64,000 bases of DNA. Origin: Anaerolineae bacterium (lineage in GTDB: Bacteria; Chloroflexota; Anaerolineae; Aggregatilineales; Phototrophicaceae). The position numbers were made by a program, and so were the translations under genes. The DNA is taken from positions 1 to 64,000 of the forward strand of contig JAJEFB010000023.1 of assembly GCA_022820665.1 (NCBI GenBank), given 5' to 3'. The notes beneath the pieces are model-generated. The model worked only from the letters and a program-made list of their open reading frames with translations, ran no database searches and was not told the origin of the DNA. Shown piece after piece: positions 56,829-63,926 of this stretch (the first letter of the stretch is position 1; each line of letters starts with the position of its first letter).

Positions 56829-57590
56829 ATGCGGGTCGTCACAAATAAAAAACTGGCTCGCCGCAATCGCAAGTTGACCAATTACCTTTTCTTTGGCACG
56901 TTCGGCGCGCTAATTCTGAGCTTCTTCGTGATCAACGCTTCACTGTTCACCGGTGACATTCCCGATTCGCTGGGCGTGATCGCGCAGTCTGCCATGTTGC
57001 CTATCGCCTTCATCCTGACGGTCCTTTCAGTGCGCATGACAAATCTATGGGCGCGCGTTCCGCGCCCGGAGAAGGCGATCGAGGACGGCTTGAAGGGCTT
57101 GAGCAACAAGAGTGTCTTGTACAACTATTATCATTTTCCGGCGCGCCACGTTCTGATTTGCCCTCAAGGCGTGTACGCGATTGTCACGCGCTGGCACGAT
57201 CAGGAATATACCTTCCGCGATGGCAAGTTCCGCAGTCATCGCAATGTTCTCAGCAAGTTCCTTTCACTGTTCCGGCTGGATGGCGTTGGCAAGCCTCTTC
57301 GCGATGCCGAGATTGCTCGTCAAGACGTACAACGGTCCATTGATGAAATCGCTCCCGATGTCGAGGTGCAACCGCTCGTGGTCTTTGTCGACCCGTCGGC
57401 CAAAATAAACTTCGAAGACGAGTTGGATACGCCCGTTCTTTTCGCTGATACGAGATTGTCCCCCAACTTGAAGGACTTCATGCGCGATGCCAAACGCCGA
57501 ATATCGGAAGAAGCCGGCGACGCAAAAAACGCCAACTTAATGCCGCTTTCTGACGAACAGATCGAAGCTTTCGAAAAAGCGACAATCTGA
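56829..57590 (+). CDS. NERD-like membrane protein
   Basis: 253 residues. Two transmembrane helices (~20-38 and ~47-66) are followed by a cytoplasmic domain. The segment YYHFPARHVLICPQGVYAIV resembles the NERD (nuclease-related) core strand pattern, followed by QEYTFRDGKFR and later VQPLVVFVDPSAKINF. The usual catalytic Lys after the VxAIVT strand is not present (RWHDQ instead), so nuclease activity is doubtful. It is encoded between the secreted CARDB protein and the glycosyltransferase, 6 bases before the latter. Confidence 0.6.
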   Translation: MRVVTNKKLARRNRKLTNYLFFGTFGALILSFFVINASLFTGDIPDSLGVIAQSAMLPIAFILTVLSVRMTNLWARVPRPEKAIEDGLKGLSNKSVLYNYYHFPARHVLICPQGVYAIVTRWHDQEYTFRDGKFRSHRNVLSKFLSLFRLDGVGKPLRDAEIARQDVQRSIDEIAPDVEVQPLVVFVDPSAKINFEDELDTPVLFADTRLSPNLKDFMRDAKRRISEEAGDAKNANLMPLSDEQIEAFEKATI

Positions 57591-57596
57591 GCCCGC

Positions 57597-59489
57597 ATGG
57601 CGCGACCCATAGGCACGGCAATTCTAATACTGATTATCTGGCTCGGCTTTGCCCTGCGCTTACACGAACTGGCTGCAGTGCCGCTGCGCGGCGACGAAGC
57701 TTTCAGCGCGCTGAACTGGGCAGGCATTCCCTTGCATCAGTCCCTGACCGAGATCGCAACGCTCGAGCCGCATCCTCCGCTGACCTACGTATTGTTTCGG
57801 CTTTGGGGGCTTCTCATCGGTGGAATCGACAGTCCCTTTGCCTTGCGCCTGCTCCCGGTCTTTGGCAATCTGATCGGCGTCTCTGGGGCTTACGCCTTGG
57901 CCTCCCGCCTATCCGGAAAGCGAATCAGCGGCATTGCCGCTGCGTTAATCTGGGCAACTCATCCCTACGAAATCTGGCATAGCCAGGACTTTCGCAACTA
58001 TGCTCTCTGGGCCGGCTTAAGCGTGACGAGCTTGTGGCTGGGTCTGCGCCTGATTGATCGGCCGGCTATGAGAAATTGGCTGCTCCATGCCCTGATGGCC
58101 ATCACCAGCGCGCTGATATTCTACACCGAAGTGTTCATGTCGATTGCCTTGGTACTTGTTGCCATTTGCTGTAAGAAAGGCGATCGGCGATTCTTCGCGA
58201 GATTTATCTCCTTGCAGGGCACCGTGGTCTTGATGCCGCTGGTGGCTTTCCTCGTTCTGCAAACCGGGCTTTTAGCCTCGGGCGCATATCCCGGCAACCT
58301 TGATTCGCTATATGTTCCTGACTTCTTGTTCCGGTTCCCGCCGGTCTTGACCCTGGGAGAAACCGCGCCGGGATCGTCACTCTGGTTGTGGATCGTCCTC
58401 GCGCTTGCGCTTGGCTTGTTCGCGTTCATTGTTGCCAGAGGCTCAAGGCGCGAGATTACGTATATCGGGGCTATCGTTCTCGTTCCATTCTTGCTGCTTG
58501 GCGTCCTTTCTTTGCGCGTGAACATTTTCCATCCGCGTTACGTATTGGCGACGGTACCGGGCTTTGTACTGCTGATCTCCCTGGGCAGCGCTCGTTTGGC
58601 TGTCTGGATAGCCAAGGCTGCTGGATTGCGGCAAGGCTACGTAATGCCGCTGCTCTTGGCGCCCTGGATTGTTCTTTCAGTTCTGTCGCTTCACACCTAC
58701 CATAACGACCCGGCATTCCGCAAATCACCCGCCTGGGACGAGCTGGGCGACTTTCTCAACAACAGAGTGACTATCGACGATCTGGTCATTCAGCTAAGCG
58801 CGGACCCCGCCTTTGGCTACTATTACCGCGGCTCAGCCGAAGACCGCGCGCTGCCGTCCGGGCCCCTGCAATCCGCAAGCAGCATCATCGACGCATTGGA
58901 GGCGGCACGGGCGAACTACGACAGCATTTATGTCGTTTCAAATGCGATACCGTCATGGCGGAACGCGCGCGTCGTCGAGGATTGGATGCGGGAAAATATG
59001 CAACCGGTCACGCTCAGCGACGCCTCTGGATTGGCCATTCGTCAATACATGGAATGGACCGTTTTGGCGGCGGACGCCATACCGCTGGCAAGCTTTGGGG
59101 GCGTGGTTGACTTGCTTGACTACCGATTTTTCGACGATCCACTGCCAACCGGCGAGTTGCTGCTGCGCGTTTATTGGCGGTCCCTGGCAATCACCGGAAA
59201 CTCGCTCAAGTCATTTGCGCATGTCTATGGAGACGCGAATCCGGAAACGGGCGCGGTTCTTTGGGCGCAAGACGACCAGTTCCCACAATCCGGGCGCATC
59301 GACAGCAGATCCTGGGCGCCAGCCAAGGTTTTCCGAGATGTCTACTACTTGCCAGCCGAGCCCTTGCAAGATGGCAGCTATGAATTGCGCCTCGGCTGGT
59401 ATGAACCTGTGAGTGGCGATCGACTGCTCACAGATGTCGGATGGGACAGTTTCTTGCTTCAAAACTTCGACTATCCGCCGAAGCCCTGA
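57597..59489 (+). CDS. Glycosyltransferase, ArnT/PMT (GT39/GT83) type membrane protein
   Basis: 630 residues with 11-13 hydrophobic segments over residues ~1-370 and a soluble C-terminal domain (~380-630). The first external loop has RGDEAFSALNWAG with the catalytic acidic pair, then EPHPPLTYVLFRLW and HPYEIWHSQDFRNYAL, characteristic of polyprenyl-phosphate-sugar-using transferases. It probably glycosylates a lipid, glycan or exported protein outside the membrane. The neighbouring secreted and LysM proteins are possible acceptors, by context only. Confidence 0.8.
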   Translation: MARPIGTAILILIIWLGFALRLHELAAVPLRGDEAFSALNWAGIPLHQSLTEIATLEPHPPLTYVLFRLWGLLIGGIDSPFALRLLPVFGNLIGVSGAYALASRLSGKRISGIAAALIWATHPYEIWHSQDFRNYALWAGLSVTSLWLGLRLIDRPAMRNWLLHALMAITSALIFYTEVFMSIALVLVAICCKKGDRRFFARFISLQGTVVLMPLVAFLVLQTGLLASGAYPGNLDSLYVPDFLFRFPPVLTLGETAPGSSLWLWIVLALALGLFAFIVARGSRREITYIGAIVLVPFLLLGVLSLRVNIFHPRYVLATVPGFVLLISLGSARLAVWIAKAAGLRQGYVMPLLLAPWIVLSVLSLHTYHNDPAFRKSPAWDELGDFLNNRVTIDDLVIQLSADPAFGYYYRGSAEDRALPSGPLQSASSIIDALEAARANYDSIYVVSNAIPSWRNARVVEDWMRENMQPVTLSDASGLAIRQYMEWTVLAADAIPLASFGGVVDLLDYRFFDDPLPTGELLLRVYWRSLAITGNSLKSFAHVYGDANPETGAVLWAQDDQFPQSGRIDSRSWAPAKVFRDVYYLPAEPLQDGSYELRLGWYEPVSGDRLLTDVGWDSFLLQNFDYPPKP

Positions 59490-59638: not shown

Positions 59639-61210
59639 ATGCGGTTACAGGAGCTGATCATCCGCACCTGTCTGGGAATGGCAATTGCCATGGTTTTCGG
59701 CTTGGCAGCGGAGGCTCGGATGGAGGATCCCGGTTCAGGCTTCAAGGACCCGGTGACTGGGGAGTTGGCAGTCAGCATCGAGCGCTATACCGTTCGCCCG
59801 AACGACACCTTGTATGCCATCGCAAAGCGCTTCAACACCAGCGTGAGGGCTCTTCAGTCGCTGAACGGATTGAGAGGCGCTCATTTGCTTTTCGCGGGCG
59901 ATGCGCTTCTCCTGCCGCGGCTTGATAAGACCGAATTTGTTGCTTACCTGGTAAAACCCGGTGACTCCTTATTCCAAATCGCCCGACGTTTCGATACGAC
60001 GGTCGAGGCTTTGCAATCGCTAAACGGAATCGGCGACCGCAACCATATCCTATCGGGTCAAACGATCCTTTTGCCCCAAAGCCGGATTATGCGCGATTTC
60101 GCTTACGGAATCACGCTATTCCCGGATCTTGAAAGTACGCCGGACATCTTGCGCTGGGTCAAAGAGCTTGGCGTCAATTGGGCCAAGATCGAAGTCAACT
60201 GGGCTGACCTGGAACCGACCGCAACCGATTTCGCCTTTGACAGTTTGGATGCCCTAATCGCGGGCTTGGACCAGCTTGGGATTCAAATTCTGCTAAATGT
60301 ATATGGGGCGCCGCAATGGTCTCGCAGCTCATATACTCGGCAATTGAACAGTTTGCTGCGCGCCAATTCGGGACCCCCGGAGAACCTGGAGACTTTCGCT
60401 ACTTTCATGAGCGTATTGGCGGGGCGCTACGCAGGCATTATCGATGCTTACGAGATCTGGAAATCGCCCAATCTCTTGAAATACTGGACCGCGCCAGTCT
60501 ACGAACAACTGCCAACAATGGGCGCCTCAGGGGACTACGGTTTCCCGGACAAGATAAAAATCGGGGCTGCCTATTACGTGGATCTGCTGAAGATCGCCTA
60601 TGAGGCCATCAAATCGGTCGACAGCGGCGCGCTTGTGATCACCGCGGGTCTGGCGCCTGTTGGATTTACCGACAATTACAACGCTGTAGAAACTGGCGAG
60701 TTTTTAGGGGATATGATCCGTGAAGGCGCGACAGACTACAGCGATGGTATCGGCGCGCTATTTGGCGCGTCGGCGGTCCCTCCGACATTATTCTGCTGCG
60801 AACAGCCGCCGGGCGTGGATACGCACTACGAATCGCATTTACAGTATTTTACCGAGATTCTCTATCTGTATCGCGATATTCTCAGCCGCAAGGCATCCGA
60901 TGACATCCCGATCTACATTACGCAGGTGGGCTGGGGGACAACCGAGGGCTCTAATCTGGCGATTCCAGCGAGCGGTCTCGAGTGGCTCAGGTACACGGAC
61001 CAGGGCGAACAGGCGCTTTACGTCGCTCAAGCCTACGATATTGCCTACAGGCTCAATTACATTGAGGGAATGTTCTTGTACAACCTTAATGGTTGCGCGG
61101 TGGGCGACAGCGAAGCCTGTTTCTTCAGTCTTGTTGACGCCGCCGGGGTGGACAGACCCGCCTTGCAATCTTTCGCGGAAACAGAGAAAGCCGCGACCTA
61201 CACGACTTGA
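59639..61210 (+). CDS. Secreted protein with two LysM domains and a glycosidase-like barrel lacking catalytic glutamates
   Basis: 523 residues from ATG 59639, which gives a signal peptide (LIIRTCLGMAIAMVFGLAAEA). An in-frame ATG at 59441 inside the previous gene is rejected. LysM 1 spans ~48-93 and LysM 2 ~101-146. Residues ~150-520 form a TIM barrel like GH39/GH5-type enzymes. Where homologues read WNEPN this protein has WKSPN (residues 274-278). Where a TE-[FG]W nucleophile motif is expected it has ITQVGW (Gln429). Both expected catalytic Glu are therefore replaced. A peptidoglycan- or glycan-binding role without hydrolysis is inferred. Confidence 0.75.
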   Translation: MRLQELIIRTCLGMAIAMVFGLAAEARMEDPGSGFKDPVTGELAVSIERYTVRPNDTLYAIAKRFNTSVRALQSLNGLRGAHLLFAGDALLLPRLDKTEFVAYLVKPGDSLFQIARRFDTTVEALQSLNGIGDRNHILSGQTILLPQSRIMRDFAYGITLFPDLESTPDILRWVKELGVNWAKIEVNWADLEPTATDFAFDSLDALIAGLDQLGIQILLNVYGAPQWSRSSYTRQLNSLLRANSGPPENLETFATFMSVLAGRYAGIIDAYEIWKSPNLLKYWTAPVYEQLPTMGASGDYGFPDKIKIGAAYYVDLLKIAYEAIKSVDSGALVITAGLAPVGFTDNYNAVETGEFLGDMIREGATDYSDGIGALFGASAVPPTLFCCEQPPGVDTHYESHLQYFTEILYLYRDILSRKASDDIPIYITQVGWGTTEGSNLAIPASGLEWLRYTDQGEQALYVAQAYDIAYRLNYIEGMFLYNLNGCAVGDSEACFFSLVDAAGVDRPALQSFAETEKAATYTT

Positions 61211-61446: not shown

Positions 61447-62610
61447 TTACCGGCTCGTCCACTCAAAGCTACGCCAGATACCCGGCGCGCCGACAATCGT
61501 ATAGACGCCTTGGGCGTCTCTCCGCGCGACGCTCACTCGCCATTGCATGAGGTGAGACATTCCATCATCTGGCGCAAACCCCGACGGTACGATCAGGTCA
61601 TTCGCTTTGCTGACTAAGGGCAAAGATCTGTTGACAGTCTGATCAATCAGTTCGACCAGGTACTCATCCGCGGCGTTTATGCCGTTGATGCCGACCCATT
61701 GCAGCCGCAGTTCGTTTGTCCGGACCAATGCGCCGTCGGCCGGAAATATGAGGCGTGGCGGCAGATAAGTGGCAGTCGGCGTTGCAGTTTCGTCTCCGGT
61801 CGGCGTCGGCGTTTTGCTTGGCAGCGGCGTTGGCAAAGGCACGAAGACGCACTGGCCGATCTGAATATTCGGTCTGCAGTCGGGTCCGCCGCTTGGTTCG
61901 GTAAAGGCGCAGCCAAAAAACTGGATTTCCTTGTTCAATTGGCTGAGGACTTCCAGCGTCGTGCTGTATTGTTCGGCGATCGCCACGATTGAGTCCCCCG
62001 CTTCAACTTCATAGCAGCCGACGCTTGAACCGGATCGTAGTAGCGCCCCGGTATCCTGATTGACGCCGATCATCGCCAGGACTTCTTCCGTGGCGCTCGC
62101 GCCGACAGCAGTAACGGTTGAGGTCGGCCGCGGTATGAATATCGTATTGCCGACCGGCGGCAGCAGATCAATGTGGCTGATGTTCTCGTTGAGGGCAACC
62201 ACGGTCGCGGCAACCTCCAGGTCGTAGCCGAATCCATGCTGGGGCAGTTGAATGATGTAAAACAGCGTGTCCTCTTCCTGGACCACGTACTCGTAGAATG
62301 CTGATGTCGCCGTGGCTATCCTGGTCGGCGTCGGCGGCGCCGTTGTGTCTGTGGCGGTCGCCGTTGCGATTTCCAACGTAGGCATGCGCGTATCAGTCGC
62401 GGTCGCCGTTGCGATTTCCAACGTAGACACGCGCGTACCTGTAGCGGAGGGCAGCGCTTTGGCAGTGGCTACCAGCGGCGGTTTGGCTGTCGCGATTTCT
62501 TCCTGCTCAATTGTCGGCGTCTTGGAGACCGCGGGAATCCCGATGTTGCAGGCGGACATCGTGAAGAGAACGGCTGTAATAAGCGCGCGAAAGGCTTGTC
62601 CATGTTTCAC
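61447..62610 (-). CDS. LysM-domain lipoprotein
   Basis: 387 residues from GTG 62610, which overlaps the upstream stop codon as GTGA; an in-frame ATG at 62706 lies well inside the upstream gene. The signal peptide ends TMSAC with a lipobox Cys21. A Thr/Pro/Ala-rich stalk (~25-100) contains a duplicated segment. Two LysM-like modules (~105-160 and ~195-280: YEVEAGDSIVAIAEQYSTTL) follow, then a C-terminal Ig-like domain (~300-387: LRLQWVGINGINAADEYLVEL). It is a shortened paralogue of the next gene and probably binds cell-wall glycan at the outer face. Confidence 0.8.
   Translation of the reverse strand: MKHGQAFRALITAVLFTMSACNIGIPAVSKTPTIEQEEIATAKPPLVATAKALPSATGTRVSTLEIATATATDTRMPTLEIATATATDTTAPPTPTRIATATSAFYEYVVQEEDTLFYIIQLPQHGFGYDLEVAATVVALNENISHIDLLPPVGNTIFIPRPTSTVTAVGASATEEVLAMIGVNQDTGALLRSGSSVGCYEVEAGDSIVAIAEQYSTTLEVLSQLNKEIQFFGCAFTEPSGGPDCRPNIQIGQCVFVPLPTPLPSKTPTPTGDETATPTATYLPPRLIFPADGALVRTNELRLQWVGINGINAADEYLVELIDQTVNRSLPLVSKANDLIVPSGFAPDDGMSHLMQWRVSVARRDAQGVYTIVGAPGIWRSFEWTSR
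62354..62426. repeat. 45-bp tandem duplication in the lipoprotein stalk
   Basis: A 28-base block beginning GCGGTCGCCGTTGCGATTTC occurs identically at 62354-62381 and 62399-62426, a 45-base period (15 codons). It encodes the repeated TLEIATATATDT stalk unit. The copy number is two, in frame, so it changes only stalk length. Confidence 0.8.
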
Positions 62611-63926
62611 GATGCGCTGCCTCCGGAGCCCTCCCAAACCAAAGTCCGTGTGCCCGTCGCCTGGGACGAATCGCCGGTACTTTGGCTGACAATCGACACT
62701 TGCCACATATACGTGTGGCGTTGGTCATCGTCCGCCTGCCATTGCCGTGGCAATATGAAAAAAAGATCCCGTGTTTCCGCCGTGAACCTGTTGACCGTGC
62801 CGACCTCGGAAATGGCGACGCGAAAAATTTCATCCGCTGCCAGCGTCCCCGTCGCTACCCAGCGCAGCGTGACCTGATCGCCCGCGCCGAAAAACGCGCG
62901 ATCAGTCGGGCCAACAGCGAAAGGCGCGTTGACCGTTGCCGTGGCTGGCGGTATAGGCGTTTCGCTGCCGGAAAGAGTCGGCACGGGCGTAACTGTCGCG
63001 GTAGGCGCGGGAACGCGCAAGGTCTGTCCTTCGATCAATTCGACAATGCACTCGCCTCCACCGTAAGGCAAGCTAAAATCGCATAAGGCAAATGCCACTT
63101 CCGGGTTCAGGTCGGAAAGTTGCTTGGCGTCGGTATCGTATTGCACGGCGATCGCGATCATGCTGTCTCCTTCCGCAACAGTATGCCATGTCAATCCCGG
63201 CAATATCGTAGGCGTCGCCGTCGGCGCGAATGGATCGAAGGAAAGCAGAGCGAATCCCTCTGAGCCAGGCGTATCTTCCAGGCTCGCGGAAGCGTTCAAT
63301 TGCGGAACTGGCGTTGCAAGCGGATCGGTCGTGGCGCTGGGCAACGGGACGACGATATCCTGGCCTATCTGAATGCGGGTCTCGTCAACGATCCCGTTAA
63401 TCGCTTTCACGGTTGGCAAGATATCCAGTCTGCGGTATCCGCAACCCGCGATAATGCTGATTAATGAGTCCCCCGCGGCGACTCGATGGATGCAGGGCGA
63501 CGGGGTCGGGGTTTCGCTCGGTACCAGCGTAGGCAAAGGAGTTGGGCTGGGAACTGGGCTAGGAAAGCCAGGCGTCACTGTCGCAAAACTCGGGCGCGTG
63601 GGCGCCGCAGTCGGCGACAATTCGCCCAGCGGGACATCTTCGCGCCCTGATAGATTGCTGACGATTGCCAGGGCAAACGCCGCGAGCAGCGCCATCCCCA
63701 AGACGGCCATGCCTGCGAAGAGCCTGCGCGCGGTGTCATTCAGCGCCCCCTCGTACAGGTCGGTCTCGCCATGACGATAGTCGTAGTCCCTCCAGGCCAG
63801 ATTGCTTTCATCCGAGAGCGCTTGCGCCTCGACATCCTCTATCGCCGTTCCGCAAGTAGAACACGTGCTGGCATTGCCATGGTTGCGCGCTTCACAGATC
63901 GGGCAGCGTTTGTATGATTCGGACAA
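62607..63926 (-). CDS. Zinc-ribbon, single-pass membrane protein with LysM domains
   Basis: 439 residues. A four-cysteine zinc ribbon at the N-terminus (Cys8/Cys11 in CPIC, Cys22/Cys25 in CSTC) is followed by one transmembrane helix (~70-92), a Pro/Thr-rich linker, two LysM modules (~140-195 and ~245-310: WHTVAEGDSMIAIAVQYDTD) and a C-terminal Ig-like domain (~335-439: VTLRWVATGTLAADEIFRVAI). The layout puts the zinc ribbon in the cytoplasm and the LysM part outside. GGGAGG precedes the ATG. It is the upstream, probably ancestral paralogue of the LysM lipoprotein, with a GTGA overlap. The remaining 74 bases to the window end hold no gene. Confidence 0.82.
   Translation of the reverse strand: MSESYKRCPICEARNHGNASTCSTCGTAIEDVEAQALSDESNLAWRDYDYRHGETDLYEGALNDTARRLFAGMAVLGMALLAAFALAIVSNLSGREDVPLGELSPTAAPTRPSFATVTPGFPSPVPSPTPLPTLVPSETPTPSPCIHRVAAGDSLISIIAGCGYRRLDILPTVKAINGIVDETRIQIGQDIVVPLPSATTDPLATPVPQLNASASLEDTPGSEGFALLSFDPFAPTATPTILPGLTWHTVAEGDSMIAIAVQYDTDAKQLSDLNPEVAFALCDFSLPYGGGECIVELIEGQTLRVPAPTATVTPVPTLSGSETPIPPATATVNAPFAVGPTDRAFFGAGDQVTLRWVATGTLAADEIFRVAISEVGTVNRFTAETRDLFFILPRQWQADDDQRHTYMWQVSIVSQSTGDSSQATGTRTLVWEGSGGSAS

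Follow-up and report, generated by a model that had tools for sequence, protein, structure and literature searches.

Combining profile alignment, structure prediction and a motif survey of relatives, we find that the window, by which we mean the whole 64,000-nucleotide stretch of contig JAJEFB010000023.1 analysed here, encodes a LysM-anchored, glycosidase-like protein of 523 aa (59639..61210, + strand) that lacks both catalytic glutamates of its enzyme relatives and is conserved in 34/34 genomes of its genus. Glycosidase homology, loss of the catalytic residues and a gene under selection would, on the sequence evidence, place it among the pseudoglycosidases. The reading we favour, at somewhat better than even, is that of a conserved, exported pseudoglycosidase which, fixed at the wall, binds but does not cleave a glycan.

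The open reading frame begins with an ATG at 59639 and its stop codon ends at 61210, agreeing with the earlier note on this DNA, and a comparison of starts finds MRLQ common to the five closest orthologues. By inspection, the N-terminal hydrophobic segment (59639..59716, +), a helix over residues 2-25 in the model, is a putative signal peptide or membrane anchor. The two LysM domains that the earlier note had read here are recovered as two stretches of a Pfam LysM match (4.9e-30; 103.7 bits vs a curated cut-off of 20.9), the first at 59786..59917 (+; approximately residues 50-93, boundaries by inspection) and the second, the best-matching stretch, at 59945..60076 (+; residues 103-146). Next comes a PslG-like (beta/alpha)8 barrel (60098..61183, +; approximately residues 154-515), assigned from phmmer, profile, model and a partial Pfam match. 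Signal-like segment, LysM repeats and barrel form the layout of most homologues in the taxonomic order, and judged from these sequences two LysM domains plus barrel is the ancestral arrangement. Many genus members (L018-L035, L037-L039) carry extra LysM repeats before the barrel, in open frames of 700-813 aa. A wall to which such domains could be fixed, as the earlier note had supposed, is indicated by the genes of the genome, among which are four strong matches to Mur ligases and several genes for penicillin-binding transpeptidases; a LysM target therefore likely exists.

Among solved structures, PslG of Pseudomonas aeruginosa, a GH39 endo-beta-glucanase (PDB 4zn2, 5bx9, 9g17), is closest in sequence, found by phmmer at 2e-9 and by a profile built from 38 homologues at 5.7e-31; it is also the best fold match. 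Within Pfam, the barrel of the window protein has only a partial match, to Glyco_hydro_42, and Glyco_hydro_39 is matched by 15 of the 38 homologues (E<=0.01). Structure prediction with 11 sequences was of low confidence twice (pLDDT 55 and 58.7), and in the low-confidence barrel model (pLDDT 58.7, pTM 0.69), which has eight strands, strand 4 ends at K275/S276 and strand 7 contains Q429. PslG 4zn2 tops the VIA list obtained with this low-confidence model (Z 19.7, 260 residues, rmsd 3.6), with GH1 barrels within 1 Z unit and hence tied. Foldseek ranked three PslG entries first with the barrel model and SleL (PDB 4s3j) first with the full model; this spore cortex-lytic enzyme, like the window protein, places two LysM domains before a TIM barrel, but its barrel belongs to GH18 and is catalytically active. 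Sequence and model together point to a clan GH-A barrel closest to a GH39 member, PslG, in keeping with the clan A-type frame first proposed from the letters. The protein is PslG/GH39-like by descent and, by its residues, no GH39 enzyme.

In PslG, Glu165 is the acid/base and Glu276 the nucleophile; the sugar at -1 makes contact with Asn164 and is stacked against Phe319 (PMC11912335). The 38-homologue profile, with PslG chain numbering shifted by +26 to give Glu165 and Glu276, pairs PslG's WNEPN/Glu165 with WKSPN (60458..60472, +; residues 274-278), a vestigial acid/base motif at the end of strand 4, and PslG's TEWGW/Glu276 with ITQVGW (60917..60934, +; residues 427-432), the nucleophile-region motif. 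These are the two motifs from which the earlier note had deduced that both catalytic carboxylates were lost, and the alignment upholds it: Ser276 stands for Glu165 and Gln429 (60923..60925, +; in strand 7 of the model) for Glu276, with Lys275 in place of Asn164 and Tyr481 (61079..61081, +), which keeps the aromatic, in place of Phe319. Both proteins share WxxPN after strand 4, T-x-x-GW in strand 7 and the stacking aromatic position; the window protein differs in the replacement of both catalytic Glu and Asn164, in having two LysM domains where PslG has a carbohydrate-binding domain, and in having no Psl operon. R331/D332 of PslG are not retained in the profile alignment, several cleft residues (T352, A377, S378, F375, Q402) have changed jointly, and the loop after strand 4 holds a genus-specific insert, GDYGFP (60530..60547, +), in which G298, D299, G301 and P303 are near-invariant.

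These substitutions are fixed features of the genus, as alignment with orthologues, the check put forward in the earlier note, makes plain. WK[S/A]PN and TQxGWG occur in all 34 genus genomes examined, with K275 and Q429 each in 34/34, Ser (27) or Ala (7) at position 276, and D299 in 33/34; both the acid/base and the nucleophile Glu of a retaining GH39 glycosidase are absent throughout. Because K275, S/A276 and Q429 recur in 34/34 genomes, the motif change is not a matter of chance or sequencing artefact, and because neither nucleophile nor acid/base is present, the classical retaining mechanism could not operate and is effectively excluded at the level of sequence. Ser276 as a catalytic residue was considered and rejected, since Ala substitutes for it in seven species. 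In the genus, conservation of the cleft face exceeds that of the helices by 0.50 bits (95% interval 0.24-0.77), and in the rest of the family by 0.48 bits (0.19-0.76), whereas mostly intact relatives show no such excess (0.08 bits, -0.18 to 0.32). This comparison is limited to columns filled in all groups and is supportive only, because the face is taken from a low-confidence model.

Beyond what the earlier note had claimed, the sequences of relatives indicate a graded loss throughout the family, and PslG of GH39 as the closest enzyme. A homologue was found in 60/60 relatives searched, and the motif survey covered 110 sequences: the 34 of the genus, 36 from other genera of the family, and 40 from other families, the class and own-genome paralogues. 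Among the last 40, acid/base Glu is kept in 39 and nucleophile Glu in 35. The other genera of the family retain the acid/base Glu in 35/36, and at the nucleophile position they carry Lys (17), Arg (12), Ala (3), Gln, Ser or Glu (2), so that Lys/Arg accounts for 29/36. In a quick tree built without the motif columns and supported by SH-aLRT only, the genus clade (SH-aLRT 100) is nested in the family clade (51 rows, SH-aLRT 99), and the class outgroup is uniformly WNEQN/TEFGW. The nucleophile position must have changed at least seven times and the acid/base position at least three times, counts that do not tell gain from loss. The simplest story from these sequences is that in this genus the nucleophile was lost first and the acid/base second. 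This order is not universal: another family of the taxonomic order shows further losses (L058, L067, L122, L124, L111), with TQFGW three times, TKFGW once and, in L111, WDSPN with intact TEFGW. Inside the Lys/Arg clade, L073 and L113 carry the nucleophile Glu, by retention or regain, where their close relatives L107 and L115 have Ala, a pattern that could reflect regain or very recent loss. The window's own genome holds paralogues with WNE[P/Q]N and TEFGW. On its contig C21, at ~56-59.4 kb, there are probably three tandem PslG-like genes (L003/L004/L006/L007), of which the one that was read carries intact WNEQN/TEFGW motifs. Contig C35 (~76.3-77.2 kb) holds a PslG-like paralogue, L009, whose open frame of 1068 aa carries the motifs WDEPN and SHWGW; with His in place of the nucleophile it is a second candidate variant.

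We propose a PslG-like retaining endoglycosidase of Chloroflexota (GH39, clan GH-A) as the ancestor of the protein. Both catalytic Glu are replaced in every genus member and Asn164 is exchanged for an invariant Lys, and the cleft face stays under purifying selection. Its LysM domains would hold it on peptidoglycan, and the former substrate cleft may bind a glycan uncut, either a surface or matrix polysaccharide of the cell itself or an anionic glycan of the sponge, making the bound protein a lectin-like tether or sensor. The exchange of Asn/Glu/Glu for Lys/Ser-Ala/Gln removes two negative charges and adds one positive. Given the positive charge gained at the old -1 subsite, acidic glycans are a reasonable first guess, and as the favoured ligand an acidic glycan is speculation. 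Among the genomes examined, those with a public title are Chloroflexota MAGs, and the isolate names of several suggest a sponge source; we infer a sponge origin for the window's own genome. Published genomes of sponge Chloroflexi abound in GT83 and CBM50/LysM and suggest a capacity to break down the glycosaminoglycans of sponges (PMC6306507). As precedents, heparanase 2 (HPSE2), a clan GH-A pseudoenzyme, has lost its nucleophile, kept its acid/base and binds heparan sulfate uncut (PMC12406646), and YKL-39, a chitinase-like lectin, binds chito-oligosaccharides (PMC7828330). Heparanase 2 is akin to those relatives in the same bacterial family that lack the nucleophile; it differs from the window protein, which has lost both Glu, in its kept acid/base Glu, its lack of LysM and its animal origin. 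YKL-39 is likewise a barrel glycosidase turned glycan binder, but of GH18 and not GH39-like. Conservation and such precedents make the glycan-recognition or scaffold role first suggested in the earlier note plausible.

The partner of the pseudoglycosidase might instead be a protein, the barrel regulating or scaffolding an active enzyme such as an intact PslG-like paralogue or a neighbouring glycosyltransferase, a reading we consider unlikely though worth keeping in view. The intact paralogues of the same genome speak for it, as does the inhibition of HPSE1 by HPSE2 (PMC12406646). The cleft is remodelled, with a genus-specific loop, and since several of its residues changed together, it may have ceased to accommodate the ancestral glycan, and a protein could be the partner. 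A PMT_2-type glycosyltransferase (57597..59489, +; Pfam 7.4e-8) lies 149 bp upstream of the pseudoglycosidase gene and 6 bp downstream of a gene for a membrane protein with a sub-threshold NERD match (56829..57590, +). The genus gene order is NERD-like gene, PMT_2 glycosyltransferase, pseudoglycosidase gene, then two convergent LysM genes, and we infer an association of the glycosyltransferase with the pseudoglycosidase gene. However, this synteny is confined to the genus, and the loss of the nucleophile extends beyond the PMT_2 neighbourhood; in contig L046 the upstream genes are absent in the stretch retrieved. Among the loci examined there were no conserved neighbours outside the genus of the kind a Psl-like operon would give, and since neighbours there are unrelated, no fixed operon goes with the protein. 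The two convergent LysM genes of the window (61447-63926, -) overlap, have Thr/Pro-rich linkers, are mutually related and are syntenic in the genus; the second has a weak zinc-ribbon-like N-terminus. PADLOC returned no match to anti-phage defence, and no viral copies were found.

An enzyme with different chemistry, for example lyase-like or inverting, in which K275 and Q429 act together with acids of the loops, for instance D299, E448 or E492, appears improbable. The invariance of K275 and Q429 and the near-invariance of D299 would suit it, and Lys plus an amide is the pattern of some polysaccharide lyases; we know of no clan GH-A precedent. The genus-invariant acids (E192, D204, E272, D299, D328, D345, D369, E398, E448, E457, D490, E492, D500) are, however, either common to most intact relatives, as E192, E272 and D345 are, or at least 12 residues past a strand end (D299 +24, E398 +20, E448 +15, E492 +14). 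None of them sits within 3 residues after a strand end, by sequence positions on model strands; E272, 3 residues before the end of strand 4, is the only one within 3 residues of an end, and from sequence and model there appears to be no obvious new pair. A re-tooled barrel, in which K275, Q429 and the D299 loop make a new active site on acidic sponge-matrix glycans, is a long shot; if true, it would add to the GH-A fold a new class of enzyme, anchored by LysM. That the protein is a conventional hydrolase of low rate, with substrate assistance or an exogenous nucleophile coming to its rescue, is very improbable: other genera of the family do keep an acid/base Glu without a nucleophile, the layout of substrate-assisted glycosidases, but with Ser/Ala at the acid/base position in this genus leaving-group protonation is missing too, and substrate assistance is unlikely because of it. 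Decay without function, for which the lost active residues might speak, has a negligible chance, the gene being present in 34/34 genomes with no disabling stops in the barrel, dN/dS of 0.09-0.29 (NG86, close pairs) and invariant new residues; conservation and dN/dS also rule out a pseudogene or assembly error.

We return to a glycan-binding pseudoglycosidase: because both cutting residues are lost in 34 species yet selection keeps the gene intact, the barrel has probably become a sugar-binding surface protein. In the papers searched there was nothing close to an inactive LysM plus GH39 protein or similar clan GH-A pseudoenzyme; pseudoglycosidases are a known kind, and that literature appears to contain no description of a LysM-PslG-like clade in which the loss is stepwise. 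Many well-studied pseudoglycosidases are single animal examples. Here a bacterial lineage holds the intermediates side by side, from an intact enzyme through replacement of the nucleophile by Lys/Arg to loss of the acid/base as well, with the anchored architecture constant, and such natural intermediates make the transition from enzyme to binder testable. For the organisms themselves, our findings point to a wall-bound, putative glycan-binding protein in all the genomes examined from a genus associated with sponges.
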